Part shown: positions 7,061 to 51,126 of the stretch, one piece after another
Position numbering within the stretch: position 1 is the stretch's first letter
How the letters are laid out: every line of letters starts with the position of its first letter
Origin: Thalassia testudinum
Taxonomy: Eukaryota > Streptophyta > Magnoliopsida > Alismatales > Hydrocharitaceae
Direction: 5' to 3'
DNA: 64,000 nt
Assembly (NCBI GenBank): GCA_037157565.1
Contig: JAZHRO010000013.1
Span: 39,622,501 to 39,686,500 of the forward strand
Program-made: the position numbers and the translations under genes
Notes under the pieces: model-generated
Seen by the model: only the letters and a program-made list of their open reading frames with translations
What the model was told of the DNA's origin: nothing
Databases searched by the model: none

Positions 7061-7396
7061 TCATTATGCTCAACGCGGTGTGATTGAGGAATGGGGCTTT
7101 GAATTGAATCCTTCATGAAATGACGATCTGAATCCACCATGTGAGCCCCAACAAAATCAAGTTCCTAAATTTTCAAGCCATCAAATGATTCATCGAATTC
7201 CTTAAACCTAGTCATCTCACTGAAATCGTGTGCTGCAAACTCAGGTGAGACTTTGCATAATAATTCTTTACCTTTAGAATCAAAGAATTCTAAATCCACA
7301 TTAATGTATGTCTCAAAATCATCAATCACTTTCTGATCCATGGAGACATATATTTCCTTGTTCCTGAAATGACCCGTTGCCTTTTTGGCCGGATAA

Positions 7397-7454
7397 GACG
7401 CCTGGAGTTTCGGTCAGACATCTGTCCAGATGTTTAGACACATGCCCGGACGAT
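7397..7454. promoter_or_regulatory. Phased GACGTC-like sites, LTR-end cluster of B1
   Basis: Degenerate hexamers at 7397, 7417, 7429, 7437 and 7449 fall on 20 and 12 bp steps. This cluster lies near the 3' end of the LTR in its own orientation and corresponds to the 63118-63155 cluster of B3. Confidence 0.5.
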
Positions 7455-7944
7455 TGAAAGTGAAATTTGCGTACGTCCCCTTTTCACTCTACTCGCGAGC
7501 GGCGCGCAGAGGTCTCTCTCTCCCCACACCCTCACCCCCTCAAAACCCTAGCTTACCCTATCTAAACCCCACTTCCCTTCTTCTCACCCCCTCACACCAC
7601 TCTCCAGCCACCATCACCACCTTCAGCGTCTCCCTCTTGTGGCCTTGGCGAGGGAGGACGTGAGTGACGAGAGAGGGGGCGAGCGAGGGAGAACGAGAGG
7701 GGGAAAGAGAGAAGAAGGAAGAGAGAGTGAAGGTTGGAGGACCTTCGGGAGCTTGGCGGAGCTCACACGACCGGCGGCGGGTGCACGCGCGAGGAGGAAG
7801 GGCTCGGGGAGACGACCTCCCAGCCCTCTGCAGCTGCTGAAGCTGCTACAGCGCGCTGTGGGCGACGTCGCAAGGAGAGAAGCATCGTGGAGCAGGTTCT
7901 GGTACTAGAAGTTTTCCAGTATCAGGCGTTTGGGTTATCATCCA

Positions 7945-8304
7945 GACAACTGGCGAGGCACCAGGACGTCCGGAGCTAAGGCCGGATGTCTGAAAGCGCA
8001 ATATCACAAGGTACGTACCTTCCTGTGTTGCTTTCCTCATGCAGAAGATTTCAGCGCAGGAGGTGTTGGGCTAAAATTGTGCCTGTGTTTTCATATGCAG
8101 GTAGAGGCTTTGGGAAGGCACGCGATACGCTTTCCCAAGTACTTTTGGACGTCTGACAGCATTGCCAGACGTCTGACGGTCCTTCTAGACGATTAGAAGG
8201 AGGTTGAGACGTCTGGAGCTGCCCCCAGACGATCACGGAGGGATCCAGTCGTCTGAGCATACCGCAGGAAACACAAGGTTAGATCTGACGTATTTTAAGA
8301 CGTC
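7945..8304. promoter_or_regulatory. Phased GACGTC array of B1
   Basis: Sites at 7945, 7965 and 7985 are 20 bp apart. Six consecutive sites at 8148, 8168, 8188, 8208, 8228 and 8248 (GACGTC, GACGTC, GACGAT, GACGTC, GACGAT, GTCGTC) are exactly 20 bp apart, and a further GACGTC lies at 8299. The 14 bp between cores vary while the period holds. Confidence 0.75.
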
Positions 8305-10304
8305 TGAGACTAGTCCCAGAATTATGATTTTGGTCAGCAACCGCGTTTTTGGCCCGTTTAAGGCTTAAACGGAATCAAATTTTTGAAAATGAAGTACTGT
8401 TGTTTTCCACTCGAGTTCCTCTACGTGTTCGTGTTGAGTATCTACTATTTTGACCTCATCTAATGTACATTGGTCACTGGTATAGGTTACCAGTCGGTGG
8501 CATGTTTGGGGCCCGCGGAGACGACGAGATCTGCAGCACAGGCCCCCATTCCTCCCGTGATACCCGGTAGAGTGGTTTATTGCAATTATTAAGATATGAA
8601 TAAAGAATATGTTTGCTTAGATTAAATTGATTGAACTCTAGGATGTGGAATGAACCCTATGGTAGAAATGTATGAGGATGATATGAAACTACTCTGGTTT
8701 ACTTGAAATGCATGTTGAAATACAAGCTGCCTACATGTAAATTGAATTGTGAAATCATAAGTTGCATGTTTATGATTGAGAACGGAATTATGATAACACA
8801 AGCTGCCTGTATGTGGATGAGGAACGAGTTATGAAACATGATTTGAATATGGATAAATGAGATGAATACTAGAATGAACCCTACGGGGAATTAGGAGTAG
8901 AACTCCTGTGTGTGAAAGGAATCTAGAACATAGACGAGAAGTGCGCTGGCCCTTATATATGCGGTACCAAGGAGAGTAACTGTCCCTTTTTAGTGTAGAG
9001 CGGAGCTAGCCTCCCTTGGGTTGAGATCCGGGGTTAGGATTGACCACTCTACATTGACTCCTGTTGGTCCTCGCATACGTGGTACCGAGGCGTGCTTCTA
9101 GTGTAGGGAGGGAGCTAGCCACCCCACGGGGCTCGGGGTTCAGGTAGCCACCCCACGGGGCTCGAGGTTTAGGTAGCCACCCTACACCGACTTTGTTAGG
9201 CCCTTTGGGCAAATCGAGGTAGTCGGACGAGGGTACGTGGACTATGGAGAGGGGAGACCCTTGTTTGGTTCTGAGGGGCGAGACCCCTATTCTAAGAGGG
9301 CAAGGCTCTATACTGTTCTGTGATGTACTTTGGGTATACCCGCTAAGGCAAACGACAGATCGCATGTTTGTGCGTGGTATCTACCTGTGCGCTTATCACG
9401 CGTGCCGTAGTCACCACTACGTCTCGACAGTGACCTTGGGGTGGTTGACTGGGTGTAGGACTACCACGGGGGACCCTCCCGTCCAGGAGAGCACCACGTG
9501 TACCTTCTACTCTATGGAAAGACTACAACCAAAATCGTTCCCACGAGAAACATGCAAGATCAAGAAATACCTAGATACTTTGAGAAATAAATGAATCAGA
9601 AACTCATAAATGAGATATATAGAAATGAGAAATAAACCTGTTGTTGTTTTTACTTTACTTACACTTAAACAATGTAAACACCACTCTATTCAGCATTCGC
9701 TGACTCTATTTTTTTTCGTAACCCTATTCAGGACCAATAGTTGGGCAGCTCGAGTTTCCAGCTGCAGAGGATGCTGGGCCCTGTCGAGCCTAACCATAGT
9801 CGTTCTTTCAGCTCCTTCATTTTTCTGCTGTTGTAGTGAGTAATAGACATATATTTTACTGTTCCTGTTACTTCTGTTTCCTTTTCGTTGTTGTTGTTGT
9901 TGTGGTGGCATGTACTAAGTTTTGAGACAGTTGTTATACTTTCCTTCATTGCTTCATTCTTTCCTTCTGCTTAGTTATATTGCATGTGTTAATGTGGTTT
10001 AGTTTCCTTCTTTTGGTTATTTCTCTTTGGATGACTAGGTCTTGGGATTAGTCGAGGCAGGTCGGTCTCAGGTCCTGTAGGGATTCGGGAACCGGGTTGA
10101 AATAGTTCCCTGGCTCAGAGATCTTAGGTGAGGAAATTAGTTCATCCTTATTTGCTTGCTCTATAACATTATGGTCAACCCTGGTCCCATAAAATGTGTC
10201 CCCCTGCAAGTGCTTGAGCGAATTTGGCATTGGCTCTCCTGACAAGGGTTCATCCTGGGAATCATCCCAAGATTGGACTAGAAATCCTCGGGCACCACCC
10301 AAAC

Positions 10305-13935: not shown

Positions 13936-14397
13936 CCTCTCACTACTCTCCTCTCTAAAGATGTACACTTCCAGATCTCTGACGAGTGTGTTCGTGCCTA
14001 TACGACACTTCGTGATCTGGTTACCAAGGCACCCATACTGCAACCCCCGAATTGGTCTCACCCTTTTGAGATCATGTGTGATGCCTCTAATTATGCAGTA
14101 GGAGCTGTCCTTGGTCAAAAATTGAACGGGAAACCCACAGTAATCTATTATTCTATCAAGACCTTAGATGAAGCCCATAGGAATTACACCGTCACGGAAA
14201 AGGAATTACTAGCTGTAGTATTTGCACTGGAGAAATTCAGACCTTATCTTTTAGGATCCCACATTATAGTCTACACTGACCACACGGCAATTCGACATCT
14301 TCTCGCCAATAAGGACATGAAATCTCGTCTGATTAGATGGATCCTGCTTTTATAGGAAATTGATTTAGAGATTCGTGATAAGGCTGGAAAGCAGAAT
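13936..14397 (+). pseudogene. pol: G1 RNase H domain
   Basis: Degrades RNA in the RNA-DNA hybrid during reverse transcription. Motifs: [16 protein letters not shown] (first catalytic aspartate), [19 protein letters not shown] (glutamate), [14 protein letters not shown] (aspartate) and the trailing [12 protein letters not shown] (final aspartate) that runs into the next segment. One stop at 14353-14355 replaces the residue before [10 protein letters not shown]. Same frame as reverse transcriptase and integrase. Confidence 0.88.
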
Positions 14398-15822
14398 GTG
14401 GTAGCTGACCACTTATCCCGCCTTCCTTCTGAAGCGATTTCTCCTTCTTCACCCATTTCTGACCACTTCCCTGACGAGCAATTACTGGTCATTCATTCTG
14501 ATCTTCCCTGGTATGGTGACATTGTCAACTACCTGGCTTCTAGAATCCTCCCCACTGATTGGGTTCGACATCAAAAAGACAGACTTAGATCCGAGGACAA
14601 GCACTATTACTGGGAAGAACCCGGGCGTTTCAAGCATTCCAAAGACCAGATCTTTAGGAAGTGTGTTCCAGATAAGGAGATTAGAAGCATCTTATCGTTC
14701 TACCATGACCAGGCGTGCGGCGGTCACTTCTCTGGCAAAAAGACTGCTGCAAAGATTTTGCAGAGCGATTTTTATTGGCCCACAATCTTTAAAGATGCAC
14801 GCGAATATAGCAGGGCATGTTCACGCTGTCAGTCTCTTAGCAGTATTGGCCGCCGAGACATGATGCCCTTGAATCCGATCATGGTGTGCGAAATCTTTGA
14901 CATTTGGGGCATTGACTTCATGGGACCTTTTCCTAAATCTTATGGCTTCGAGTATATATTGTTGGCAGTTGAGTATGTTTCGAAATGGATTGAAGCCATC
15001 CCCTCGAGGACTAATGATCATAGAGTTGTGACACAATTCGTTCAAGATTTTATCTTCTCTAGATTTGGGGTACCAAAAGCCATCATTAGTGATGGAGGGT
15101 CTTATTTTAGAAACACACATTTTCAGTCCCTACTTCAAAAGTATGGGGTGTCACATAGGATAGCTACACCATGTCACCTTCAAACCAATGGACTTGTTGA
15201 ATTGTCCAATCGGGAGATCAAGAAGATTTTACAGACTACCATCCGTCCAGATAGAAAGCATTGGTCTTCCCACCTTTCTAATGCGTTGTGGGCATATAGG
15301 ACAGCTCACAAAACCCCTTTAGGCATGTCTCCTTTTAGACTTGTGTACGGGAAACACTGTCATCTTCCCGTAGAACTAGAGCACAAAGCTTATTGGGCCA
15401 TCAGAAAGTGTAACTTTGACCTAGAGAAGGTCGGTGATCTTAGGAAATTGCAAATTTCTGAGTTTGATGAGTTAAGGAATGAATCTTATGAAAGCTCAAG
15501 GATTTATAAGGATAAACTTAAGGCCTTCCATGACCGTCACATTCTTAGGAAATCATTTCACCCTGGTCAAAAAGTCCTTCTCTTCGACTCTAGACTAAAA
15601 CTCTTTCCTAGGAAATTAAGATCAAAATGGACTGGACCTTTCAAAATCTTAAGAATATTTGACAATGGAGTCATTGAGATCACTGAAATTGACAAATCTG
15701 AACCTTTTACTGTAAATGGTCAAAGACTAAAACCTTTCATTGAGCCGCATGATCTCAGACTTGTCAATTCCACCATTTTGCTCCTACATTTTGAACTACC
15801 ATCCAAGTTTTCGCCTAGTTGA
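14398..15822 (+). pseudogene. pol: G1 integrase, long open segment of 474 codons
   Basis: Inserts the cDNA into the genome. The HHCC zinc-binding part is visible as HDQACGGHF (14704-14730) followed by CSRCQSL. The catalytic triad is D in WGIDFMGPFP (about 14908), D in ISDGGSYF (about 15090) and E in VELSNREIKK (about 15199), with exactly 35 residues between the last two (D35E). The C-terminal part has WAYRTAHKTPLGMSPFRLVYGK, FDSRLKLFPRKLRSKWTGPFKI (GPY/F-like) and ends LPSKFSPS. No chromodomain is visible, which fits Athila/Tat rather than a chromovirus. The segment is open but lies inside a dead polyprotein. Confidence 0.92.
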
Positions 15823-17367
15823 AGGCGTTAAACTTAGCAAAGCCTATCCATGTATATAACTGTTTTTCACCTTTCTTACTTTAGCTTTCATTTGCATTAG
15901 GTGTCTACTCTTGCATTTTGAGCATACTTTCATTGACACACATGTCATGCATTTCACTTCCTAGCCCGACTGTTCACTCTGATCCTAGATCAGACTTAAA
16001 ATCATCCACACAAAGATTTTATCTCCTCATTCCGACTTCCTTCCATCACTCAGTCTAGGATAGTGAAAAGCAGAGCATGCATTTGCATTCACCCTATTCA
16101 TTCAATGAGGACATTACAATATTTAAGCATGAGGGGGGGTAAATGGTTAACCATTTAAACTAAAATACAATTGTAGACACACCAATAGTGTGTATATATA
16201 TATATGCTAAAAAAAAGAAATCCAAAAATACAATAAGGGACATGCACTTTATTGTCAAGGGAGTACATTAATTTTAAGGAGAAAGGGAGAAAAAGATGAA
16301 AAGTGTTTAACTATGATCTTCTAGCTGAAAATAAATTTAGAATAAGTGTCTATGGACATTCAACCGTTACTGGTTTGACTTGCCGGGCCATAATAGCTTG
16401 ATACAAGCTTGGGCTTAATACACTTTAAGCCTTGACAAGATAGACCACAGTCTCTCCTAACTTTAGGACATTTTCTTGTACCTGAGTCACCAGTACAGGA
16501 TTCGTTGATTTGCTTTGACTTAGGAGTCTAAGTAACCTTGGCTTACACTACACAATATCAGGAAAGACCACTTGAACCTAAACTTCAACCCTTGTGTTCA
16601 TAGGGAAGGTGGAGTCGTTACCTGTACGTGCAGGTAGACTCTTTGTCCTAATCTTTAGTCTTGTGTCTAGGAGAAACTCTTTCCACAAAAAAATTCACCC
16701 ACTAAATACAGTGCGCTCTACCAAATAAGTTCCGGAGACATACAGATCCAAAAAAAAAAAAAGGAGTTCTTGCAAAAAGTCAAGTATGTTCTCCAAATTC
16801 TGGAAATACAATTGTTCCACCAAAAATGTTTTCAGGGTTCAAAACAAATACCCTATTTGTCCACCAAAAGTTCTCTGAGCCACAAACACAATAAGGGTTG
16901 GGTTTAAATAGTCATCAATTCTTGAGAGTCATCCGAAAACATGAGCTGAAGTTAGGACCAACCTGGACTTAAAAAGAAGTGAAACCCCGGGAGTGAGCTT
17001 TAAAATTCACTTAGTTAGTCCTGACTTATCACAAAGCACAGCCATAACCTCATAGCATTCTGAGTCTCTGTAAAACCCCCTGAGTCCTGGAATTCGACTT
17101 AAGGTTTAAATATCAAGAGTCCTTGTTGGTTGAGAGATGGTCTATGTCATTTAAGTCTCGAGTTCTGGTAGGTTATCCTTAGTAATAAGGTTCTCACAAT
17201 GTCCAAAACACAGTTGGTTTATTGAAAAAAATCTTTCAGCCTGAAGATCATCATCAAACACTTAAAATTTTTGAAAGAGGAAAAAGATATCTCTTCACAC
17301 TTACCTTGCTGATACTCAAATTGCCTTACACTTCAACGAATTGTTTGCTAAGGGACTAGCAAAACGT
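15823..17367 (+). other. G1 3' non-coding domain with internal polypurine tract
   Basis: About 1.55 kb between integrase and the 3' LTR without an open frame; there is no env-like gene. At 16122-16139 a TTTAAGCATGAGGGGGGG tract follows CAATGAGGACATTACAA. The same arrangement recurs in D (inverse, 43625-43644) and G2 (inverse, 30470-30484). The inverse counterpart in G2 is 29156-30782. A (TA)n run lies at about 16193-16204. Confidence 0.75.
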
Positions 17368-17380
17368 AAGCATGGGGGTA
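17368..17380 (+). promoter_or_regulatory. G1 polypurine tract next to 3' LTR
   Basis: AAGCATGGGGGTA lies directly before the LTR start TGATGAG at 17381. This is where plus-strand DNA synthesis would be primed. The same motif abuts the LTR in element D (inverse, 42430-42442) and, slightly changed, in G2 (inverse, 29144-29155). Confidence 0.85.
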
Positions 17381-18760
17381 TGATGAGTGGCTACTCATCA
17401 TGGCTAAAAAGCTGAAGTTAAGCTAGACACTGAGTAAAACAACATCAAATTAATAGATAAAAAGGGTTAAGTGTGGGAATTAAAGAAAAAGACCTAAAAC
17501 CTTTACTCTGTGTTAAAACTTCAAAATTAGGTCACAAAATGAGATATTCTGAAAGCAAAGTACAAATGATGATCTATGCGTCAATTGAACACAAAAATAA
17601 GTTTGAAAGGCCAAATCAGAAGTATAATTAATGTCTTAAATGTTTAATTAAGCACATATAAAAATTTGAAGGCATTAGGACATCATTTAGGCTATGAAAT
17701 AGGTAGTTTACACTAGGTCCTTCATGCACTACACTCTTGCCCTTAAAAATTCCTCTTTGGACCTACTTGTAAGCCGCAGGGACCCTTTTGAAAGGCTGCA
17801 GGGTCCTTCCTGTTGTAATTCTTTTCACTTATGGGCCTGCACGCAAATCTTCTACCCTTTCGCGCAAGGGTCTGTCTGCAATTTTCCCATTATTTCAGAG
17901 AACGGCCTGCTGCTCTTCGCACGCATTGTAGCCCGTGAAGAACACAGCCGATCTCGGCCGTCCGTTGCTTCTCACGATTCTGACTTGTGGTTAGACTTGA
18001 ATGGAAGCTTCGCGCGATTCGGCGCATGCGATCACCCCTTTCCCCAGATCTCATTTGACGGTCAGATTTTGAGAATAGCTCACCACGTTCTCCGCTCCTC
18101 TCATCCTCGCCGCCAGTTACCTCTTCGATTATCCTCACCCGCGCGGTGATCTCAGCCACTGAGTATGCTACTTAAGCACCTCAGTGGTGTCGCGCGCAGG
18201 GGATCGCTCCCTCCTACATCTCTTAGCGATCGTTCGTCCACTCCAGTTCCTCCTCCCCATTTAGCCTCTGATTTCACAGCAACCGGCTGTGAAATTGTCA
18301 CCTTCTCTCGACCTCCTCGTCGCTAAGGACTTCGTAGCACCTGAGGACTGCTGGTGCTAGAGCACCACGATCATTTGTTTTGATGATAACAAAACACGTG
18401 TTATTTAACATTTGCAATTTGAGTCCTAGATTTCAGGTCAATTGCAAATGAAGACGTGTTTAGACGGAACTCGAGCTCGCATCCAGAACGGATTGGAGGA
18501 GCTTAATGAAGAACAGAGGAGGTTCGCGTGGAGCGACAGATTGAAGATAGAAGACAAGAAGAATAGGATAGATTCTTTTTAATCCTTTCTTATATCTCTT
18601 GTCTTTATTTTCTTGCTCTTTTTATTTTCCTTAGAATATTATGTTAAAGATCCTCAAAGAACCCTAACAGTAGTCCTATGAACACCGGCACAACCCTAGG
18701 ATACTTAGGTTTTCTGTAGAATACTTAGAAAACCAATATAGGGTTCAAACAGCACTTCCA

Positions 18761-19297
18761 GACGTCTAATTCCAAAATCAGACGTCTGATAAAGTATTTT
18801 AAGATGTCTGACTGTTGTTTCAGACGTCTGATAACTGTTAGGCTGGACGTACTTAGTTCTGTCTGATGAAATCAGACGTCCAGACCTTAGACCAGACGTC
18901 TTAGGAGACATCTGATGACTTTGCCTGAAGTCCAATTAGTGGACCGTTGGCTGGCTTAGCATACACTCAAGATATGACCGTTAGAGCCTTATCAGACGTC
19001 CATAGGACTGACCAGACGTCTGATAATTGACCGTTTTGCCTCGGCTGACCCAAAATCTCTTCTCAGAGATTTTCTAGCCGTTGCAACGGTTGGAAAATCC
19101 ATTCCGTAGGAAAAGTTGGTTTCCAGACGTCCGGGCATAGTGCCATACGTCCTGTATGTCGTCTGATCAACTTGAACAAAAACCCTGTTTAGATCTGATT
19201 CAAGTCAGGAAGAAACCCGCATAGAATCAGACGTCTGACATCTTAATCAGACGTCTTAAAGTGGCCTTCCAAACGTCTGATGCCAGAGTTAGACGTC
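18761..19297. promoter_or_regulatory. Phased GACGTC array in U3 of A1
   Basis: Eleven exact GACGTC sites start at 18761, 18781, 18823, 18875, 18895, 18995, 19015, 19126, 19230, 19250 and 19292. Degenerate ones lie at 18803, 18907, 18927, 19146, 19158 and 19272. Spacings of 20 dominate, with 12 or 22 between pairs. Most cores are inside the ten-base palindrome CAGACGTCTG. The array ends about 115 bp upstream of the TATA box, the place of an LTR enhancer. GACGTC is the C-box type core bound by plant bZIP proteins. Confidence 0.85.
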
Positions 19298-19410: not shown

Positions 19411-19419
19411 TATAAATAG
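19411..19419 (+). promoter_or_regulatory. TATA box of A1
   Basis: TATAAATAG is followed by purine-rich sequence and the R-U5 part. The same box is found in the A2 copy at 56368-56376. Confidence 0.7.
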
Positions 19420-21469
19420 AGGGGAGCCTTTACACACCAAGACACACCTAGAGAGACCAAGATACACAAGAAATAATTTGTATTACACTTTCCACTCTCT
19501 TGTGTCCTAGCTAGCTCTTGCTCTCCAAGCTCAAGCACCATTCTCTTGAGAGCATCAAGCTGTTGCGCACCTGCTCTCCCGCAGTAGTTCACGAGAGCGA
19601 AGTTGCGCCGTCGCGTGGCTCACGCACCACGTTATCGTCGACGCACTCCTTGCAAAGGGGAGTTTCCTAAATCCTATAGAAGCTTAGGTTTATTACTTTG
19701 TGTACTTTGTGCGATTGCCTTTCTGTGTGATTGTTTATTGCTTTATATTATTTCCTCATATTATTACGTCACCCCTCCTGGTAGAGCCCGGGAAATCTTC
19801 AAGACCCTAGAGCCTCACTAGCAGACTCCTCTCTCTGCTGGAGTCATCTTCCTCCCTTCTTCCTCCTTAGCCACCGGCTAAGGACGCACAGGCCCCATTC
19901 TTCCTGTTAGAATAGATTTATAATTCTGCAGATTAGTTGTAGCTGTAGTTAAGTAGGTTTAGAGTAGAATTAATGTAATTGGTAGTGTTTGATATTGCTG
20001 TTAGGGTAAAGTAGCTGTAGTAGTAGAATTAGGCTTTAAATTCTCCCCTCTCCTCCTCTGATCATTCCAGATCAGAGGGGAAGGTTTCACATAGCCATGA
20101 TTTCAAATTCTCTCCCTCTCCATATTTTCATATTCACTTTTTATTTCCACGATCTGTTTCTCGCATTCCACCCATACACACTGACCCAATGTCAGATCTG
20201 ATTGGTTTTTAACCTCAGATCTGATATTGGCGTCAAAAAGCACTTAAGGGGCTTCCCATTCACCTCACTCTTGGTCACAAAAGCCCCTGGTTTGAGTTGA
20301 AATTATCAATTTGTCAGATTTCTCTTTAATTTGGATTTCAAGGATTTTTCATTCAATTGGGTTTTAACTGTTTGATCTGACAAATTGAATAAATTCTGAT
20401 TTGAGTTCATTGTTGGCAAGGAGTCTGAGATGTTTTCTGATGTCAGAATTCATCTCAGAAGAACCATATTCAGAGCTGGTTTGATGAAGTTTTTAATGCA
20501 CTGAATGCAAGTCAGAACTAAGGAGAATCACTGTAGTGATTTGAAGCTTGATCTTGCATTCATGAGTTTGTTTTGAATGGATGTTTTGGTGATTTCCAAA
20601 CCTAAGGAGTTCTCAATACTCCTTAAGGTTTCAGAAACTGGGATTTGAACTAGGGATTTCAATTGACTGAATTAACTCTTTCTTCATGCTGTCTAGAGCA
20701 TTAAGAAGAGTTAAATCAGTGTCTTTTGTTGATTTAATCTGATGTGAAGTTTTTGATAAGGGTTTTTGCATTTGAATTGGTTCAGTTTTTTTTTTTTTAA
20801 TGAGAGTGAGACCCTTATCAGATGAAAGATTGAGAGAGAATTTTTGTTTTTGTTTGGATTTATGATTTTTTTTAATCCCAGTGGTCACAGTAAAGTGCTG
20901 CATTTTGCAGCTACATTCCCCTTCTTTCCCTACTCATATTTTATCCCAAATGGACTATCTGCAGCAGCAGTTAGACCATCTAGAATTAGATCTGAGCTGA
21001 CGAAGGGTTTATCTGTAGAATCAGTGCTACTGCAGCTGTCTAGCTGTTTTAATTTTTAGCAGACTAAATCTAATGTAATACCCTGTACAATGTGCTTTGA
21101 ATTGTAGCTAACACACAGAAATTTTGATTCCCTTATAAACACAAACTTTCCTGTTAGATAATTGCTCTTTCATTTCTATGAATGCTTGTTTTCAATTCTT
21201 TCAAGTGTTGTTAGCTAGTTTAACTGAACTTAACTGTCCAAACATGATTTAGAATGGGAAACTAAGCTGAGGACTATTTTAAAATTGGTAAACACCTCCT
21301 AAATCACATGCTGTATGAAAATGAGGCATTCATGAAACTTGATAAAAAGAGTTAAACTTAAAAAGACATTAAACATGCCTCTTTCTCTCCTCAGCCAACT
21401 CTTCCCTTCTCATCTCCTATTTCTGTAAAAGTTATAAAAACAATAAAAAGTAAAAAGCCCCCAAAAGAA

Positions 21470-22919: not shown

Positions 22920-23247
22920 CTGCTTCTTTTTTCTCTGATTTCTTCTTCTTCTCTTCTTCTCTTGCCTTCCTTCTTCTGATTTCTTCTTCTTCTCTTCTTC
23001 ACAGACTCTTCGAATGTTGTGGCTCTTCTTCTCTTTCTCTTCTTTATCTCTGCTTCTCTCCTTCACGCAGAGGGGGAAGGGGTCTCAAATTTGGCTAAGT
23101 GTTGAGCCAATGCTCCAGGGAGCAAAAACCTCCCCTGCCCCGCGCAAGCTCTCCTCTATTTCTCTCCTTGGGTTTCCTTCTTTCTTTCGCCTTCACAAGG
23201 CCATGCACAGTACCAGGTTATCAGGTATTCGGACCTAGAGCGCACTC
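22920..23247 (-). repeat. Oligo-pyrimidine R-U5-like block
   Basis: TTCTTCTTC-type tracts are followed by a GC-richer stretch with CACAAGGCCATGCACAG. It matches the character and order of 4000-4260 in E1 and of the inverse of 51980-52110 in F. The small lysine/arginine-rich frames on its minus strand are low-complexity by-products, not genes. Confidence 0.45.
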
Positions 23248-24462
23248 GGGTCAAGGGTCACCGGCGTGGCATAGTGACCGAGGAGTGTACAAGGCTTAAG
23301 CAGGTGGTGATGGTGATGATGGTTGAATCGTAATGGAATCCATTGTACGATCATCCACGGTTCATATAAAAAGAAATGTCGTTGTTGTTGTAGTATATGT
23401 CAGAAATATAAACCATTATCACGATCATTTTATTTATTTACCTAATTTTTACTAGTTTATTCCAGGTCATTCACTGGGAGGCAATTATTGATATACATCA
23501 CTCTCTAGGTCCAAAATTATTCTTTAATTCCAAAAAAAAATTTTATATCCAATAAAAAATGAATGAATGTATGCTTAATTTAATTATGCACAAAGAATCA
23601 ATTAAAATGCTTGCAAAAATTAATTACAAACAAGCATCAAACACTTCATATCGGGTCAAGGGTTACCGGCGTGGTGTAGTGACCGAGGAGTGTACAAGGC
23701 TTAAGCGGGTGGTGATGGTGATGATGGTTGAATCATAATGGAATCCATTGTACGATCATCCATGGTTCATATAAAAAAGAAATGTCGTTGTTGTTATAGC
23801 ATATGTCAAAAATATAAACCATTATCAGGATCATTTTATTTAATTACCTAATTTTTACTAGTTTATTCCAGGTCGTTCACTGGGAGGCAGTTATTGATAT
23901 ACATCACTCTCTAGGTCCAAAACTATTCTTTAATTCCAAAAATAAATTTTATATCCAATAAAGAATGAACGAATGTATGCTTGATTTAATTATGCACAAA
24001 GAATCAATTAAAATGCTTGCAAAAATTAATTACAAACAAGCATCAAACACTTCATATCGGGTCAAGGGTCACTGGCGTGGTGTAGTGACCGAGGAGTGTA
24101 CAAGGCTTAAGCGGGTGGTGATGGTGATGATGGTTGAATCGTAATGGAATCCATTGTACGATCATCCACGGTTCATATAAAAAAGAAATGTCGTTGTTGT
24201 TATAGTATATGTCAGAAATATAAACCATTATCATGATCATTTTATTTACTTACCTAATTTTTACTAGTTTATTCCAAGTCGTTCACTAGGAGGTAATTAT
24301 TGATATACATCACTCTCTAAGGCCAAAATTATTCTTTAATTACAAAAAGAAATTTTATATCCAATAAAGAATGAATGAATGTATGCTTGATTTAATTATG
24401 CACAAAGAATCAATTAAAATGCTTGTAAAAATTAATTACAAACAAGCATCAAACACTTCATA
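23248..24462 (-). repeat. Three tandem copies of a 405 bp unit
   Basis: Units start near 23251, 23656 and 24062 (periods 405 and 406). Each contains TCAAGGGT, a GGTGATGGTGATGATGG stretch, GTCGTTGTTGTT and a GTTCACTGGGAGGC-like segment. They are highly similar but not identical. A single diverged inverse copy lies at about 55560-55715, next to a primer-site-like sequence, so the unit is the tail part of the LTR and was amplified in G2 only. Confidence 0.88.
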
Positions 24463-35200: not shown

Positions 35201-38200
35201 ATTGATCGGAGAGGGTAGATTGAGAGAGACCTAAGGTCTAAATCTGATCTACTCTTAATGCTAAGCACTCAACTCACGAATTACAATCTATTCTATCTAA
35301 ATTACACTAGAAAGTGATAAATATAATCTATAAAAGCATAAATTCTTTCTAAGCAAATGAATGGGATCTGAGGGAAAAAACATAGCTGGTGGCTAACGGC
35401 GAAGAAGGTAAGGGAGATCTCCAGCAGAGGAAAAGCCAAGTAGTGGAGCTTCTGAGTAGCCTTCAGGAGTTAGGATATCTGTAGCGGCGAGGATCGAATG
35501 GGAAGGGGCAATGCCGCCTCTGTCACAAGAAGCAAGAGTGAAGAGGAAGAAGAAGCTAGAAAGGAAGAAAATCAACCCAAGAAATGTAGTAGGGGAGCGA
35601 CCTCATGTGCAGTGGACTGTGAATGTGTATATATAGGCACTCGAGCTCAAGAGTGACTGGAAATCGAAGGTGGCCCATAAGGTAGCAACGGCTATGGAGG
35701 GAGATGGGGTATGCAGGAAATTTTCAGAATGAATCACAGCTGCTACATGTGATCTAGATGCGCAATCGTGTGTACACCGACGTTGGCCGATTCGGTGGAG
35801 ATCCATTATTGATCAGAAGGGGAAAGGATCAGACTATAGTTGTAGCTCGTGTCCAATGCGAGTGAACAGTAGCTAAGGAGACTACATCAGGTGTGTTGGG
35901 CATTTTGCACTGAAGCCCAAGGATGAATTAGTGTTAAAAGTATAAGAAAACCCATATGTGAGTAGAATAGTAACCATTTAGTCCATGATGGCTTACTACA
36001 TGGTCCCTGTGATTTGCTATAGAGTCCCATGTTGTTGCAAAGGCACTACGATCATTAATTTTGATAATAACAAAATACTTGTAATTTAACATTTACATTG
36101 AGTTTATGAGTTTCAGGAAATTGCAAATGCGTACAAGTGTGAAGGAGCTTAAGCTCACATCCATGGTGGATTGGAGGAGTTTGCTGGAGGAGAAGAAGCT
36201 TCGCGTGGAGTGAGAGGTTGAAGAAAAGACAAGAAGAATAGGATAGATGTTCTTTTGTCTTGTACTCTATATTTGTTATTTTTGTTCCTTGCTCTTTTAC
36301 TTTTTCTAGATTATATGTTAAAGAGCCTCAAAGTAACAAAACTATAGTCCTAGGAACACCTACACAAACCTAGGATACTTAGGCTATTCATAAAGAACCT
36401 AGAAAGCCAAAATAAGCATCAGATAGCCTGATCAGACATTTGATCTTAGACTTTAAGGCATATAACTGTTTGATCAAACGTCCAAACACTTAGGCTGGAC
36501 CTAGTGCTTTCTGTCTGTTAATTTTAGATGACCAACTCTTAGTGCAGATGTCTTAGAAGATGTCTGATGAACTTTCCAGTCATCCAACTAAAGGTCTGTT
36601 TGCTTGTTGATGAGGTGTGCCTCATCATAACTAAAAAGCAGAAGTTAAGCTAGAAACTAGGTTAAAGACTATTGTATTAACACATGAAAAGGGTTAAGCA
36701 TGGAAAATAATAAAAAAGACCTAAAACATCAAATTTATGTTAAAAATGCAAAATTAGGTCATTAAATGAGGTAACATATTCATTATTGCAAAATGATGAT
36801 TCATTTGTAAATTGAATAAATATTTGAGTTCAAAAGTTCAAATCAAAAGCACAATTAACTTCCTTAATGTTCAATTAAGCTTAAATAAAAACTTGGTTGC
36901 ATTTGGACATCATTAGGGCCTTGCATTTATGGTTTCTCACTTAGGTCCTTAAGCCATATACATAACATTCATAAAAAAACCTTCCAAGGACCACTTTGTA
37001 AATCATAGGGACCTATTTGAAAACACTTAGGGACTGCTCTAAATTAGTTCCTCACCACTTATGAGCCTCGCTACAAAAATTCTACCCCTTCGCCACTTTG
37101 GGTTTCCCTGCAATTACACCCTTAGACCTACAGCTGCGCAAATGCACTGTAGTGCCCGATGAACACACTACATCCCAGCCATTCGCTCCTTGCTCTCTTG
37201 ATCCTGTGGCTCTGATCCTTTCAAAACCTCACGCGTTTTGACACGTGTAGTCACCTCCTACCCTAGATCCCATCCAACGGCTGTAATTTGGATTGGAACT
37301 TCGCGTGCCTCTCTCCCTTCATTGCAACCGCCCATAACCTAGGTGCTTAATCGCACCACTATGGTTAGCACAATCACTACCTTGCTTACTTAAGGAGCTC
37401 CCTGAGCTCCCGTGCACGCTAGTCGCTCCCTCCTTCTAAGTGGTTCCCATCGTCCATGCCCTCAGCTTCCTTACCTCCTTTCTTCAATGGTCGGTGACAG
37501 AGACCACTACTCTCCCTCCTTCAATCTTTGCCTGCCGATCGGCCAACGGATCTTGGACAAGTTCATCAGCTGAAGGCTCTCCTCCCCTTCCATCGTCATC
37601 AGCCGTCAAGTGGTGACCTTGGACAACTTCTTCCCTAAGATAGATTTCTCGCTTTGTTAGATGGAATTTCCTACTTTTTAGACTAACTGTAGTGTTAGTT
37701 AGAGTAATTTAGGAGCAAATTAGATGTTAGAAATAAAAATTCTGACGATGGATTAGTTTAGTTAAGAGTAGATTAGTGTAGATCCATTCCACCCTCTCAG
37801 ATCAATTCATATCAGAGAGGTGTTTTTCCACCTCCATTTCAACACACACAGCTTCCTCATCATCTCATCGTCACATTCATTTTTCTCCCTCGATGTTTTA
37901 CTCTATATTTCATCCTTCCCATCGAAGTTGAATTGGATCTAAAATACACAAATTTCTAGACCCAATTCACGCTAAAGTCCATCTAGGGGGTCCTCTCATC
38001 CACTTTAGATGTTCACAAGAACCCATGATTTGATTTCGAATTGAAATTAGTTGGCTTGATGACTTGAATTTGGATTTCATGCAGAATCGCAAGATTTTGA
38101 ATCATTTTTGCATTAAATTGTTTTAAGAAAGCAAATTAAAGTATCTTCATGCACTTGGATCATTTGTAATGAATCTGAGATGATTTAATGTAATTTTATT

Positions 38201-41058: not shown

Positions 41059-42429
41059 TGACATGCCTTCGTGCGTGTGTGTTAAGAGGTGTCATTATAG
41101 TTGCACTTGATACGTCGATTTTAAAGGAAGTAAACGGAGGTGAGTCCGAGTGTCGATCTCAAGGAGGCGTGGAAATTGGATTTTGTTTACCACTTGTCAC
41201 GAAAAAGGCGGAGTTTTGCTTGCAAAAGAGACGATTTTGAAAAGCGAGAGATAGAGAGAGAGTTTAGGGTTAGAAAGCTCTTGGTTTTGATCATGTACTT
41301 TAAACAAAAATTAAAATGGCAACTAAATGGAAAATAATTTCATTAAACATGCATTCATAGTTCATGGTTTACAACATTAAATACATGCTTCAACAAAAGT
41401 AAATGAAAGCTTAAAAGAGAGAGAGAGAGAGGTAGAGAGAGAGTGGAGAGCGACGAGGCAGCCACGGCGGTGGAGGAGGCTCCGTCGGCAGCTCGTCGTC
41501 TCCGGCGATTACAAGAGTGCCTAAAACTAGCTAGGAGAGGAGTGGAGTAGTTGCAAGTGGGAGAGGATGCCTTGAATGGTCGTAGAAGGGGGTTTAAATA
41601 GAGTTAAGGGCCTCCAAAAAGAAGAATGTGCTTTAGCGACATCTAGAACATCGCTAAAACCGCTTCCATATACGTTGGTGAAGCCCTCCTACCGCCGGTC
41701 AGTTGCCCGCCCCTCTCTCTCTCCAAGCGCGATCCGTGGACGTTGAACGAGAGCCGTTCGATCAAAGATCGGACGGCTCGGATCCTCCCGCGCCCGCACT
41801 GAGATCGCGCCTCTGGTGCACGCGCGCGTTTTCGCCCGGTGTGCGCGCGTGCGTGGGCGCTCGGGAGCTATCATCGCGCCGCGTGGCACGATCCTGGCCG
41901 CCCACTGCTGATCGGGCGGCCCAATTTTGCCGCGTCCTTCGCTCGCGCTTGATTTCCGCTCCGCGCGATTCGAACGCGCGTTGCGCCACGCCCGCGCTTT
42001 GTCGCGGCGACCGCGGGCGAGTGCGTTGATTTCTGCCGTTCGATCGAAGATCAACGGCCGAGATTCGTCCTTGGATGGCTTGAGGGTGTCCGAGCGGTGG
42101 GGCCGAGGCGACGTGGCGCTTTATGGGCCGTTGATCTCCAGATCAACGGTCAGAATTTCTTGGGCCCATTGTGGGAGTTCCGGATGTCGGATTTGGCCGA
42201 TCTTGAGTCCGTTGGACTCCGTTCATCGTTCTGAATCCATCCGTGCAGTCCGATTGCTCATCTGGGGCCTGCTTTGACACATGCTTTACACAAATGGCCA
42301 TTAATGCAATTTATAAGCAATCTTGGTACTTGATGCATGCAATGCTCCTATTCTACTTTATGTTGTGCCTTTTATTCTAAAGATGGGCCATATTCAACCT
42401 AATTACTACCCCCTTGCGTGGTGTTATCA
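41059..42429 (-). repeat. D 3' LTR (1371 bp)
   Basis: The plus strand reads TGACATGCC... to ...GTTATCA; in element orientation it starts TGATAACACC. It contains the TATA-like TATTTAAAC (inverse of 41592-41600), the TTTAGCGA hairpin (41632-41658) and dyads GAGCCGTTCGATC/GATCGGACGGCTC (41751-41779) and CCGTTGATCT/AGATCAACGG (42128-42149). Relative to the 5' LTR it has an extra stretch around 41898-41925 and lacks one around 41975. Confidence 0.92.
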
Positions 42430-42444
42430 TACCCCCATGCTTAC
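42430..42444 (-). promoter_or_regulatory. D polypurine tract
   Basis: On the minus strand GTAAGCATGGGGGTA abuts the LTR start at 42429. It is identical in its core to G1. Confidence 0.85.
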
Positions 42445-43690
42445 TCCTTGATAGTCCCTAGCAATGTTTATTCTAGCCTTTCTTTCTTTGGAGAATTCAA
42501 GAAGTAATTACTTAGGCACTTCGTTACTCGTCAATAAGAGGAAATATACGAAGATCTTAATCTACAAAGACTAAGCAACGCCCGGGTGTCTTCCAAAATA
42601 CGAATCGCCCGAATCCTTACTTTGTATATATAACTATACATATGTATACGTATATATCTATATATGTCTTTTTAGAATTTTCGGAATTCAGTGTGGGTTG
42701 GTAACTTTTTACGGCTACCCAACCCACCCAAAACTCGGTCAAAACCCTAAGTGCTAAGCATCTTGGTGTGAATGTTGTGATAGACCCACTTAACGGTAAT
42801 TGAGACAGACTTCGAGTTTCTACGCCCCTAGGTGACCGAAAAAGAAAATAAATTTTTGCCTGAAGGTGTATTTGTTCGATTGGTAGCTTTCTCCCTACGT
42901 TCATTTTACTTGGGGTCAACACAAGGATTTTCCAGTGAATATCTCCCCGGCTTGTACTACTTCCCCGCTTCGTCCTTAGGTGTTTTGGTCTTTTTTGTGC
43001 AATTATTGAGCTGGGCTCTGGACAACCGACCAATGGGTTGTTACCCACGATCACTTGCCAGCCATACTTGTGCGATGAAGTGTGGTTTATTTTCTTTTCT
43101 TTCTTTTTTTTTGTTTTTTTTTAGGTGGCTTCCCTAATCTCAAATGTACCTAGAGGCAGCGAAAAAGAAATGGCCTGTGGCTGGGTTCTGGACAACCTGC
43201 CAATGGGCAGTTACCCACGACAATTTGCCAGCCATACCACCCTAGAGAGTTCATTAGCTACCCAATTTCTGTCAAAATCTCCGAGAAGTGAGTCTGTGCA
43301 AAAATGTGTGTAGATGCTTAGACTCAAAGTTTTCCAGAGTTAGAGGGTGAGTTGATAAGTCGTATACTTATTACCTTATTTATTAGGTGGATTAGAATAT
43401 CTTAAAGTTGAAAGGATTCGCCGCTAAATCCATATTTTAATGGACACCAGGGCTGATTAAGCTTGAAGGCCTGAAAAGTCTAAGTGTTTAAGTTCTTTTT
43501 GTATTATTTTCCACTATTGACAAGTTTCTAATGCCTAAGTTTTTCTTCCTAAATTCAATTTTTTTTTTTAATCAATTAATTTATTCATTCAGACTAATTA
43601 ATTAAGCTCAGGATTATGCAATTTACCATCCCCCCCATGCTTAAGTTGGACAATGTCCTCATTGGCAGATGCATGGATGCAGAAGCTTTC
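42445..43690 (-). other. D 3' non-coding domain with internal polypurine tract
   Basis: About 1.25 kb between the integrase and the LTR. A second purine tract (inverse of 43625-43644: CTTAAGCATGGGGGGGATGG) follows a CAATGAGGACATTGTCC word. A pair of GGACAAC...CCAATGGG...TTACCCACGA blocks near 43019-43050 and 43189-43220 forms an internal repeat about 170 bp apart. There is no convincing reading frame. Confidence 0.75.
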
Positions 43691-45060
43691 AAAAAGATAG
43701 TACCTGAGTGACGTAAACTACCAGATCAGTCTAAATCAGCTGGGTTGCCTCCAGCTGGGCGGTGCTTGGTGTCAGCCCTCGACAAGGGTGACACTTTCCT
43801 TGGGGGGTACCTGGGCCAGGAAATGCTTCAATCTTTAACCATTGACTGTAAAGGTGTGCCCGGTATTAAGATCGGCGATTTCGACTGCCCCATTGGAATA
43901 GGGCTTGACCACCCGAAATGGTCCTATCCATTTGGACCTAAGTTTCCCTGGGAAGAGTTTCAAGCGTGCATCAAATAGCCAGACTTGTTGGTTTGGCTCA
44001 AAGGTTTTCCTATGAATGAGTCGGTCGTGGACGGCTTTCATTTTCTCCTTATATAGCCGACTATTGTCGAAGGCGTCCCGACGAATTTCTTCAAGCTCAG
44101 ATAATTGAAGAGTCCTTTGTGCACCAGCTAACTGGGGATCCATGTTACATTGCTTAACAGCCCAGTAAGCCTGGTGTTCCAATTCGACAGGGAGATGGCA
44201 AGCTTTGCCAAAGACCAAGCGGTAAGGTGACATGCCTATCGGGGTCTTAAAAGCGGTCCTGTATGCCCACAGGGCATCATCAAGTCATGTGGACCAGTCT
44301 TTCCTGTCAGGTCTCACAGTCTTCTGTAAAATGTTCTTGATTTGTCTGTTTGAGACCTCAGTCTGCCCATTTGTTTGTGAATGATACGGGGTGGCAATGC
44401 GGTGGTTTACCCCGTATTTTCTAAGTAGGGCACGGAACTGGGAATGGATAAAATGGCTTCCACCATCACTGATCATGGCCTTGGGTATTCCAAACCGGGA
44501 AAAGATGTTCTTCTTTACAAAGTCCATGACCGTCTTGTGATCGCATCGTCGAGTGGCGACGGCTTCAATCCATTTGGAAACATAGTCTACCGAGACCAGG
44601 ATATACTCGAAGCCGTTGGATGGTGGAAAGGGGTCCATAAAATCGATACCCCAAACATCGAAAATTTCGACAATCAAAATGGGCTGAAGGGGCATCATAT
44701 CTTTTTTGGTCATTGTCCCTAGTGTTTGGCATCGTGAGCAAGTCTTGGCAAAGATGTGTGCATCCTTGAATAGGGACGGCCAATAAAATCCAGACTGTAA
44801 AACTTTTGCAGCTGTTTTCTTGCCAGAGAAATGGCCGCCACACGCTTGGTCATGACAAAAGGAAAGCACACTCTGAACTTCATCTTCGGGGAGGCACCTC
44901 CTGATGATCTGATCAGCACAGAGGCGAAACAGCATGGGATCATCCCAAAAATAGTGCTTGGCCTCAGCCAAGAACCTGTCCCGTTGCTGTCTGGACCAGC
45001 TGTGCGGGGTTTATCCTATAACCAGGTAGTTGATATAGTCAGCATACCATGGCATTTTCT
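43691..45060 (-). pseudogene. pol: D integrase
   Basis: Zinc-binding HDQACGGHFSGKK and CSRCQTL (about 44850-44720), catalytic D in WGIDFMDPFP (44650), D in ISDGGSHF (44470) and E in TEVSNRQIKN (44360). The C-terminal part has [42 protein letters not shown] and HTFTVNG. All lie in one frame with reverse transcriptase. Stops occur near 45015, at about 44284 and at 43835, where VNG is followed by TAA in place of the glutamine kept in G1. The usual GP pair after IDFM is DP here, a possible missense change. Confidence 0.92.
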
Positions 45061-45640
45061 TGTCTTGCACGGCTAGGATGTGTTCATCAGGGAAGGTATC
45101 AGATAGAGGTAGGGAGGGTCCAATGTGGTCTGGATGAAGTCTTGACAGGTGGTCAGCCACCACATTTTTCGATCCGGCCTTGTCTCAGATTTCCAGGTCA
45201 AATTCCTGCAAAAGCAGGATCCATCTGATGAGCCTGGGTTTTGCGTCCTTTTTGGCCAACAGGTGCCGGATGGCTGAATGGTCGGTGTAGATAGTCACGT
45301 GGGATCCCAGCAAGTATGATCGAAATTTTTCCAGTCCAAAGACTACAGCGAGCAACTCTTTTTCTGTGACCGTATAATTACGTTGGGCCTCGTCCAACGT
45401 TTTGCTCGCGTAGTAGATCACCACGGGCTTCTTGTGTTGCCTTTGTCCCAGGACAGCGCCTATGGCAAAATCTGATGCGTCACACATAATCTCAAAATCC
45501 TGGGACCAGTCTGGGGGTTGAAGTATAGGTGTGGTGGAGACTAAGTCCCGGAGGGTATGATAAGCCTGGATGCAATCAGGAGACATGTGGAAAGTGGCGT
45601 CGTTGGCTAGAAGGTCGGTCAAGGGTTTGGAAAGTTTGGA
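45061..45640 (-). pseudogene. pol: D RNase H domain
   Basis: Contains [66 protein letters not shown] and [10 protein letters not shown], the four catalytic acidic positions of retroelement RNase H. A TGA at about 45182 stands where G1 has the arginine of LEIRDKA. Confidence 0.9.
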
Positions 45641-46560
45641 AAAGTCTTTGATGAACCTTCAGTAGAAGCCAACATGTCCTAGGAAAGAGCGAATCTGTCG
45701 GACCGAACTAGGTGGAGGAAGTTTGGAAATTAAATCAACCTTAGCTCGATCTACCTCGATGCCCCTATGCGAAACGATGTGTCCGAGGACAATTCCTTCT
45801 TGAACCATAAAATGGCTCTTTTCTCAACTTAACACCAAGTTAACCTCGATACATCGTTTCAGGATTTTCTCCAAGTTGCTCAAACAATGGTCGAATGAAT
45901 TCCCGAATACAGAGAAATCATCCATAAAGACCTCCAAGTATTCACCCACCATTTCTGAAAAAATGGCTAGCATGCAACGCTGGAAGGTCGCGGGTGCGTT
46001 GCATAACCCGAACGGCATTCGACGGAATGCAAACGTGCCATACGGGCAAGTGAATGTGGTCTTTTCCTGATCTTCCGGAGCAATTGCGACTTGGTTATAT
46101 CCTGAATATCCATCCAGGAAGCAAAAATACTTCTACCCTGCCAATCTTTCAAGGATTTGGTCAATGAATGGCAAGGGGAAGTGGTCCTTCTTAGTGGCTT
46201 CATTAAGCTTCCTATAATCAATACACACCCGCCATGCGGTGGTGGTGCGGGTGGGGATGGATTCGCCATGATCATTTGTGACAACGGTGAGCCCAGCCTT
46301 CTTTGGAACCACTTGAGTGGGGCTCACCCAGGGGCTATCAGAGATGGGGTAGATGATGTCGGCGTCGAGTCACTTGATAATTTCTTTTTTAACGACCTCC
46401 CGCATGTTAGGGTTTAACCGTCTCTGCATCTGGCGGGAAGGTCGGGCCCCGTCTTCCAGGTAAATCTTGTGGGTGCAATAGGTGGGGCTAATTCCTCTTA
46501 GATCTGAGATGGTCCAACCAATGGCGGCCCGATGTTCTGAAAGAGTTGCAGTCAACCTTA
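45641..46560 (-). pseudogene. pol: D reverse transcriptase
   Basis: Motifs in order: SPTQVVPKKAGLTVV, WRVCIDYRKLNEATKKDHFPLPF, RRMPFGLCNAPATFQRCM, VFMDDFSVFG (catalytic MDD, about 45935) and the IRSFLGHVGFY thumb. Stops are at 46370-46372 and 45824-45826 (both TGA where the family has tryptophan), near 46133 (TAG) and near 45665 (TGA). Apart from these the domain is intact. Confidence 0.92.
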
Positions 46561-47530
46561 GTTCCTGATCCTTGGTTAGATGGGAATTAATAATCACTGG
46601 GAAGGTCTGGCCAGGTCCCAAGAAGACGTACTTGAGATTCTCGGGCAATGGTTTAAGTTCAGGTGCGGGTGGGACCACAGTCGATGGGAATGGAAAGGGC
46701 GGTAGTTGATCAACATCGATTTCTTCAAATGGTGTCATGTGATGATACTCAGCCTTACAGAGGTCCACAGGTAATGATGGTGACGGGTCAGAACTACGGG
46801 TTTGGTGGTCTGAGACAGAACTGAGGGTAAGGCATTCCTCGATTAAAGTTTCCACGGGATCATGTTCCTCAATGTAATCACAATCAAAAGACTTTGTTGC
46901 CCGGAAGATATCCAATTGCATTTTCCTGTCTCCGAAGGCGATTTCCATACATCCCGGGTCGCAATCGCTGTTTGCTTTAGCCGTAGCTAAGAAAGGTCTG
47001 CCTAAGATTATGGGTGCATTCTGTAACTTTTCAGGGACTTCCATGTCGAGCACCAAAAAGTCGACTGGGAAATAGAAGTCCTTGACCCGTACAATCACGT
47101 CCTCGACAACCCCCTTCGGGGTTTTCACTGATCTATCCGCCAGCTGGATGGTGACAGGGGTTGGTGCCAGCTCCCCAAAACCAAATTGGTGGTACAAGGT
47201 TGTGGGAATTAGGTTGATAGAAGCACCTAGGTCCGGGAGCGCTCTATCAAATGTCATGTCCCCGATGTTGCAGGAAATCAGGGGCGTTCCTGGGTCAGTT
47301 CGTTTGAGTGGAAGGTTGCTTGATATCACGGAACTGGCTTGCTCAGAGAGTACAACCTTCCTAGATGCTTGAGGTCTCGGCTTACGCTTGGGTGTACAAG
47401 CATCCTTTAAGAACTTGGTGTAAGCGGGGAAGTGTTTGACAGCTTCTAGAAGCGGAATATTAATCTGTACTTGTTTAAAAATTTCCATCAGCTCCTCAAT
47501 TTCCACAGTATTCTTTTTTCTCTTGATTGT
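46561..47530 (-). pseudogene. pol: D protease region
   Basis: The gag-end signature ACTPKRKPR is followed by the active-site DLGASINLIP (about 47234-47205), then GVVEDVIVRVKDFYFPVDF and IILGRPFLATAKA. It ends at a poorly conserved acidic linker and LKPLPENLKYVFLG, the usual bridge into reverse transcriptase. The segment is open without stops. G1 has leucine before DLGA, while D has proline. Confidence 0.9.
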
Positions 47531-50523: not shown

Positions 50524-50541
50524 TCCCCGGCAACGGCGCCA
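50524..50541 (-). promoter_or_regulatory. D primer binding site, tRNA-Asp type
   Basis: The minus strand reads TGGCGCCGTTGCCGGGGA, a full 18-base complement to the 3' end of plant tRNA-Asp. It lies five bases inside the 5' LTR edge (50547). This primer is typical of Athila-type elements. Confidence 0.93.
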
Positions 50542-51126
50542 AAAACTAACGTGCCTTCGTGCGTGTGTGTTAAGAGGTGTCGTTATAGTTGCACTTGATA
50601 CGTCGATTTTAAAAGAAGTAAACGGAGGTGAGTCCGAGTGTCGATCTCAGGGAGGCGTGGAAATCGGATTTTGTTTACCACTTGTTGTCACGAAAAAGGC
50701 AGAGTTTTGCTTGCGAAAGAGACGGTTTTGAAAAGCGAGAGATAGAGAGAGAGTTTAGGGTTAGAAAGCTCTTGGTTTTGATCATGCACTTTAAACAGAA
50801 ATTAAAATGGCAACTAAATGGAAAATAATTTCATTAAACATGCATTCATAGTTCATGGTTTACAACATTAAATACATGCTTCAACAAAAGTAAATGAAAG
50901 CTTAAAAGAGAGAGAGAGAGAGAGAGGTAGAGAGAGAGTGGAGAGCGACGAGGCAGCCACGGCGGTGGAGGAGTCTCCGTCGGCGGCTCGTCGTCTCCGG
51001 CGATTACAAGAGTGCCTAAAACTAGCTAGGAGAGGAGTGGAGTAGTTGCAAGTGGGAGAGGATGCCTTGAATGGTGGTAGAAGGGGGTTTAAATAGAGTT
51101 AAGGGCCTCCAAAAAGAAGAATGTGC

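Follow-up and report, generated by a model that had tools for sequence, protein, structure and literature searches.

Paired GACGTC palindromes at a constant distance of 20 bp in copia and gypsy LTRs of Thalassia testudinum

The LTR of a Thalassia testudinum retrotransposon family, here called A1, carries an ordered array of 16 palindromic sites arranged as eight pairs, the two members of each pair lying 20 bp apart. The array occupies positions 18761 to 19297 (no strand assigned) of the 64,000-nucleotide stretch of contig JAZHRO010000013.1 that was analysed, hereafter the window, and its sites have a consensus of roughly (T/C)CAGACGTCTG(G/A). We confirm the observation made in the initial annotation of this DNA, find it stronger than first stated, and show that it reaches beyond the A1 family: pairs at lag 20 occur also in a pol-bearing copia element and in the LTRs of a chromodomain-type Ty3/gypsy family.

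Results

Sites, pairs and gaps of the array in the window

The eleven exact GACGTC hexamers that the initial annotation had reported are all present, at 18761, 18781, 18823, 18875, 18895, 18995, 19015, 19126, 19230, 19250 and 19292. Over the whole window GACGTC was counted 38 times, whereas dinucleotide shuffles gave 5.2 on average (maximum 13 among 100 shuffles). The eight pairs at 20 bp were likewise recovered (18761/18781, 18803/18823, 18875/18895, 18907/18927, 18995/19015, 19126/19146, 19230/19250 and 19272/19292). Both sites are exact in four of the eight pairs, and the remaining four, which have one or two decayed sites each, still keep to the lattice, as had been claimed. The positions decayed in the window are GACGTC in most relatives, as judged from an alignment of 29 arrays. 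The further claim that neighbouring pairs are separated by 12 or 22 bp held for three of the seven gaps, but not for the others, which measure 52, 68, 111 and 84 bp. The 68-bp gap of the window is 69 bp in 28 of the 29 copies, and is the sole inter-pair gap that varies. A four-site module with lags of 20, 12 and 20 bp lies at 18875 to 18932 (no strand assigned), and this pattern recurs in gypsy LTRs. The sites span 412 to 948 bp into the A1 LTR, and a TATA box, TATAAATA, was read directly at 19411 to 19418 on the + strand, 113 bp past the last site of the array.

The A1 family

The A1 LTR of the window (18349 to ~19797, + strand) is single and incomplete. It was delimited by homology to 20 loci and by the LTR starts; its right end is approximate, and ~280 bp found in relatives are absent after ~19701. 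It sits in an older gypsy element, which is uninterrupted at that point in an inverted copy. Judged against this inverted copy the insertion lies between 18348 and 19803, and no clean target-site duplication was seen at the window copy of A1. The two copies of the host element, of which one is split by the A1 LTR (14307-18348 plus 19803-20779, versus 32295-27199), are 74-90% identical by stretch. Elsewhere in the window a 406-bp unit is repeated three times in tandem (23246-24462, ~95% identical), and a 215-bp unit is present in two near-identical tandem copies (1110-1539).

A 561-bp array query was compared with the 4.26-Gb assembly. The first look passed 7181 candidates, of which 40 were scored, and all 40 matched with 94-100% identity over at least 559 bases. 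The family sample consisted of 20 fetched stretches with A1 copies. Full A1 LTRs start with TGTTGG and measure about 1.72-1.75 kb. In the eight elements with both LTRs, these were 97.3-99.2% identical to each other. All eight have 5-bp target duplications, a tRNA-Met-type primer site, TTGGTATCAGAGC (given also as TTGGTATCAGAGCAGGT), a AAAAAGGGGG-type polypurine tract at the 3′ LTR junction, and a second polypurine tract, AGGGGGAGG, upstream of the junction tract. An inverted repeat around the 3′ LTR junction, TCATCATCAAAA / TTTTGATGATAA, was read by eye. The internal part measures about 1.5-2.1 kb, which leaves no room for pol. One A1 internal frame was scanned, a long open frame inside locus L009, and it carries a copia-type gag domain (PF14223, E 6.6e-26). 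Among the best 120 of 123 protein matches to the A1 gag frame, the named ones were mostly from plants (Citrus, Ananas, Cucumis, Colocasia and others). Because of its target duplications, primer site, polypurine tracts, short inside and copia-type gag, we classify A1 as a short Sirevirus-type Ty1/copia family, an assignment made from LTR features and gag rather than from a pol tree.

Preferential integration of A1 beside existing arrays was considered and rejected: 7 of 19 insertions lie within 500 bp of a site and 11 of 19 within 1000 bp, compared with 26% and 43% of random points in the window, so that no clear enrichment was apparent (L027 was left out of this count, and L013 lacked a right end).

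Sites are preserved and spacers vary among A1 copies

For the alignment, 29 arrays from 20 loci were used, with the window counted as one locus and both LTRs of an element often included; the copies are closely related and so do not count as independent. GACGTC stands at each of the 16 positions in 23-29 of the 29 aligned copies, and the distance within a pair is 20 bp in 29 of 29 arrays for all eight pairs. At non-CpG bases the copies diverge from the majority least in the sites (0.0104) and most in the spacers (0.0797), with 0.0339 elsewhere (permutation p 0.00025 for sites and for spacers, each versus elsewhere). The initial annotation had named an origin by simple tandem duplication, with conserved spacers, as a finding that would speak against an ordered array. 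In one intact array the central spacer bases of the eight pairs are identical at a rate of 0.262, which is the chance level (28 comparisons). Since the spacers of different pairs are alike only at chance level, a recent tandem duplication does not account for the regular spacing.

We then separated variants confined to one locus (private) from those present at three or more loci (shared), two-locus variants being left out. The ratio of shared to private non-CpG variants was 1:18 in the sites, 19:20 in the spacers and 33:93 in the rest (sites versus rest, p 0.046; spacers versus rest, p 0.011; sites versus spacers, p 0.001). Private changes, which arise after insertion, do hit the sites, whereas shared ones, which are carried by transposing copies, hardly do so. 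This split is the pattern expected if selection keeps the sites in copies that transpose. The CpG bases count against such a reading: those in the sites are no better preserved than those outside (0.0385 versus 0.0219), and the CpG columns showed 17 private and 3 shared variants in the sites and 7 and 0, respectively, elsewhere. In the within-pair spacers, for their part, shared variants are more frequent than elsewhere in the array (19:20 versus 33:93, p 0.011), which could mean diversifying change.

The 20-bp pair is the unit of arrays outside A1

Spacing was also analyzed in the window and the surroundings of A1 copies (~191 kb) after A1 LTRs had been masked with 400 bp on each side, which left 190,967 bases; these are not a random sample of the genome. 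A site was defined as CAGACGTCTG with up to 2 mismatches, and 203 matches were found. The peak at lag 20 that the initial annotation had expected for the family was also present outside it: 61 pairs have this lag, 0 have lag 19 and 1 has lag 21. Lag 32 was observed 22 times and lag 40 18 times. When the sites were shifted by up to 10 bp in 2000 runs, no lag ever gathered more than 12 pairs. Among exact matches to the 64 six-base palindromes, GACGTC peaked at 16 (lag 20) and TATATA and ATATAT at 35 each (lag 12), with at most 6 for any other; the best of these, CCTAGG, peaked at 6 at lag 52. A general palindrome property of the genome was therefore rejected, a strong lag peak being confined, of the 64 words, to GACGTC and the words of TA microsatellites.

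The 80 pairs outside A1 had been chosen on the core alone, and they have a common extended consensus around that core. Exact GACGTC words without a partner (no mate at 20 bp with up to 2 mismatches) numbered 22, compared with 17.7 expected by chance, and the consensus of their flanks was almost nil. Clustering of exact sites under a strict similarity rule gave 10 groups, of which 7 contained a lag-20 pair, two of these being parts of one gypsy LTR. With relaxed sites and a loose rule, 5 of 6 groups contained such a pair, one of them weak; the weak group, at locus L024, has three sites with lags of 13 and 7. A repeat block at 2482-2909 of this locus proved to be a TA microsatellite. Distances between sites favour a period of ~10.2 bp (6 arrays; 4 of 300 block-jitter runs were as good). 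The unit of the array is supported to be the 20-bp pair. The initial annotation had interpreted the array as an ordered enhancer for a dimeric factor. The ordered array with the pair as its unit stands, by its flank consensus, by sites less variable than the spacers and by its place upstream of the TATA box in the LTR; the enhancer and the factor are treated below as parts of a putative mechanism.

Paired sites in gypsy and other copia elements

A single gypsy LTR with paired sites was delimited at 60514 to 63187 on the - strand, flanked on both sides by CTATT (60509-60513 and 63188-63192). It has a module with lags of 20, 12, 20 and 12 bp near the LTR 5′ end (63096 to 63169, - strand), and a second array at 62287 to 62627 (- strand), in which 10 sites with up to 2 mismatches include 4 pairs at lag 20. 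With its position ~560-900 bp from the LTR 5′ end, this second array is not necessarily upstream of the start site. Short direct repeats surround a CCTAGG palindrome in the same LTR (61859-61987). A truncated LTR of this gypsy family is found at 7395 to 10100 (+ strand, right end approximate), with arrays at 7395-7516 and 7821-8306. Homology among its copies ends at 10089-10110 in 11 of 12 hits, and a gypsy gag (PF03732) starts at 10193 on the same strand. The family was identified in L009, where a chromodomain pol is followed by the LTR junction: the end of gypsy pol with its chromodomain (PF00385, E 7.2e-6, just above the cut-off) is at 131-838, the gypsy LTR begins at 927, and a 20, 12, 20 module begins at 955. 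A1 elements are nested in gypsy LTRs, as at this locus.

The window has three further arrays. That at 58733 to 59044 (+ strand; 8 sites, 3 lag-20 pairs) groups by similarity with the gypsy-family arrays and is assigned with them to that LTR family. That at 55878 to 56246 (+ strand; 7 sites, 1 lag-20 pair) lies in an LTR-like stretch with a promoter region similar to the one of A1, the surroundings of the A1 TATA box being also recognisable in this diverged LTR at 55.7-56.7 kb. The 5′ part of an LTR at 36030 to 36566 (+ strand), ~75-78% identical to A1 LTRs, retains a largely decayed array of 3 sites with no lag-20 pair. The array is not in every gypsy LTR, for no GACGTC was found in the LTR-like direct repeats around gypsy domains at 41061-42429 and 50549-51932. 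The gypsy element that these repeats bound (41061-51932, - strand) has LTR-like direct repeats 93% identical to each other.

A copia element on the minus strand of L019 encodes gag-pre-integrase, integrase, SH3 and RVT_2 domains; its frames are broken and an A1 LTR is inserted in it. Its arrays are at 8614-9208, past a primer-site-like sequence, and at 676-1188, just after pol, the latter with 12 sites. We take this element for a probable Sirevirus. When the window was compared with itself at E 1e-8, the A1 array matched none of the gypsy arrays.

Discussion

The A1 array as a variant of the RM boxes

Palindromic boxes upstream of the TATA box have been known in Sireviruses since 2010. Bousios et al. 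(2010) described palindromic repeated-motif (RM) boxes in 13 Sireviruses, with at least 8 copies in each, upstream of the TATA box (PMC2829016). The boxes start 200-400 bp into the LTR and extend for 300-500 bp, they have a CGG-CCG core in 12 of the 13 elements, Tnd-1 being the exception, and they were absent from the other Ty1/copia elements compared, among which they were called Sirevirus-specific (PMC2829016). In the part of that report considered here, no single factor that binds RM boxes had been found, and promoter tests were asked for. The A1 array is alike in having many palindromes in the first half of the LTR of a Sirevirus-type element, with TATAAATA 113 bp downstream of the last site. 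It agrees with the RM boxes in copy number and position, its 16 sites from 412 to 948 bp reaching slightly beyond the published ranges. The RM boxes also include Usier GTCGGACGTCCGAC, which likewise holds GACGTC. In L019 further boxes lie past pol, on the side of the 3′ LTR, and may correspond to the RM boxes described upstream of ENV in ENV-bearing Sireviruses. However, the A1 core, AGACGTCT / CAGACGTCTG, lacks the CGG-CCG signature, the A1 boxes are paired at 20 bp whereas neither pairing nor constant spacing enters the RM-box description in the sections of the paper used here, and the A1-type box occurs also in chromodomain gypsy LTRs and is not confined to Sireviruses. Since CGG-CCG is also missing in one of the 13 published elements, we take the A1 array, as judged from its sequence and from those sections, to be a variant of the RM-box kind with another core, rather than a standard member. 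New features, to judge from the open-access literature, are the absence of CGG-CCG from the core, the pair at 20 bp as the unit, and the presence of the box in gypsy LTRs.

Other systems share single aspects with the array. The target motifs of the VANC proteins of Arabidopsis VANDAL elements are also short, clustered and non-coding, and present in an unrelated element; but, in the parts of that work drawn on here, VANDALs are DNA transposons, their motifs are built up as tandem repeats and the element-encoded binder is known (PMC5735166), whereas the A1 and gypsy arrays are in retrotransposon LTRs. In the open-access literature we found no relevant report of GACGTC palindromes in retrotransposon LTRs, no report from a plant element of CAGACGTCTG (titles and abstract starts), and no report that links the C-box or bZIP proteins with LTR palindromes. 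A Genome Research study of 2016 (26:226, cited in PMC5311732) is said to describe, in maize families, LTR palindromes that are located in the regulatory part and between which the sequence changes rapidly. A1 is alike in both respects, and its palindromes differ from those of maize.

The usual bZIP palindrome is TGACGTCA. The array shares with the plant bZIP C-box the GACGTC with its ACGT core, but the A1 flanks give AGACGTCT instead. To our knowledge obligate pairing at 20 bp is not a known bZIP rule. A bZIP protein is a possible reader of the sites, as a prediction from the sequence.

Proposed mechanism and alternative explanations

From the geometry, the conservation, the place in LTRs and the occurrence in two superfamilies we infer protein binding, its cooperativity, an effect on transcription or silencing and the nature of the protein. 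We consider it slightly more probable than not that the array consists of paired sites for a dimeric DNA-binding protein, acting in cis in the LTR and read most simply by a host factor. Each palindrome of 10-12 bp would be the site of a symmetric protein dimer, and two sites 20 bp apart would make up the functional unit. As 20 bp is close to two helical turns, the two dimers would lie on roughly the same face of the DNA, where they would probably bind cooperatively. As it lies upstream of the TATA box in A1, the array may control transcription or silencing: eight such units could bring the protein to the LTR, with the result that transcription is raised or silencing kept off. A host factor would be the simplest reader because a pol-bearing copia element, the short A1 and a chromodomain gypsy family all have the paired site.

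The initial annotation had offered RNA stems as an alternative to a protein site. If the palindromes acted as nucleic-acid hairpins, pairs or array ends would fold in the RNA and feed small-RNA production. Transcription does cover the U3 of the 3′ LTR, and the LTR palindromes of maize Sireviruses are described as hotspots of sRNA mapping in the relevant part of one report (PMC5311732). Five arrays folded at z -2.8 to -5.7 relative to controls in which the exact-site 10-mers were fixed and the background was dinucleotide-shuffled, and one array gave z -3.0 with 14-mers fixed and -2.1 with further half-site words fixed; the first spacer base had a weak excess of complementarity (p 0.02). But complementarity specific to the pair was not significant over five spacer positions (p 0.13), and the paired sites showed 12 compensatory double changes, against 8.6 expected (p 0.13), so that selection for base pairing between the sites of a pair was not supported. 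Nor does a hairpin need a constant distance of 20 bp together with a freely varying spacer. What is left of the RNA-stem proposal is the greater stability of the arrays, by 2 to 6 standard deviations over controls; it is the weaker reading, and we regard it as improbable. The constant distance, the free spacer and the preserved site are better accounted for by a protein on double-stranded DNA than by pairing in RNA.

An element-encoded anti-silencing protein of the VANC type could also bind the array, the short A1 and the gypsy LTRs then exploiting that protein. According to the portions of the study cited, the short motifs that VANC21 and VANC6 recognise are clustered in non-coding regions, and AT9TSD1, which is unrelated to VANDAL, has VANC6 motifs as well (PMC5735166); A1, moreover, has a full array yet no room for pol. 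No candidate for an element-encoded protein was identified in Pfam domain scans of chosen open frames, however, and the A1 array bears no sign of the tandem origin through which the VANDAL motifs were built up in those same portions (PMC5735166). We judge this explanation quite unlikely. That the sites are methylation landmarks, whose regular spacing favours or impedes the methylation machinery of the host, is very unlikely: CAGACGTCTG does contain one CG and two CHG sites and the inter-site distances are near multiples of 10 bp, but individual copies have lost CpGs of their sites (17 private CpG variants among 34 columns), and CG and CHG content alone demands no single fixed word. A neutral lattice left by tandem duplication or slippage would account for the regular distances, but it is already disfavoured and, in our estimate, scarcely credible, given spacer identity at chance level, sites preserved while spacers vary, and the same geometry in unrelated LTRs. 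A further alternative concerns origin and not function. The array may have been captured between a gypsy LTR and a Sirevirus by recombination, in which case its presence in both would reflect common descent and not a common factor. The 20, 12, 20 module common to A1 and gypsy and the A1 insertions nested in gypsy LTRs (e.g., L009) are in its favour, whereas the self-comparison of the window at E 1e-8 left the A1 array and the gypsy arrays unmatched, so any common origin would be old, with the sites alone kept. Such a capture is a less likely but real possibility, and it is compatible with paired sites for a dimeric protein, the two not being exclusive.

With a little less than even confidence, we extend the paired-site explanation to both superfamilies: two unrelated superfamilies in one genome would use the same cis code (the 20-bp CAGACGTCTG pair and the 20, 12, 20 modules), read by one cooperative protein, either host- or element-encoded, that controls transcription or escape from silencing. 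The code would have arisen twice or been swapped, and selection would have kept it while the sequence between the sites turned over. The constant geometry of the pair, kept in the relatives of A1 and in gypsy LTRs, narrows the question to a protein with a preference for two CAGACGTCTG sites at this distance. Should both superfamilies be read by one protein, two large classes of transposable elements in a multi-gigabase genome would have a control point in common.
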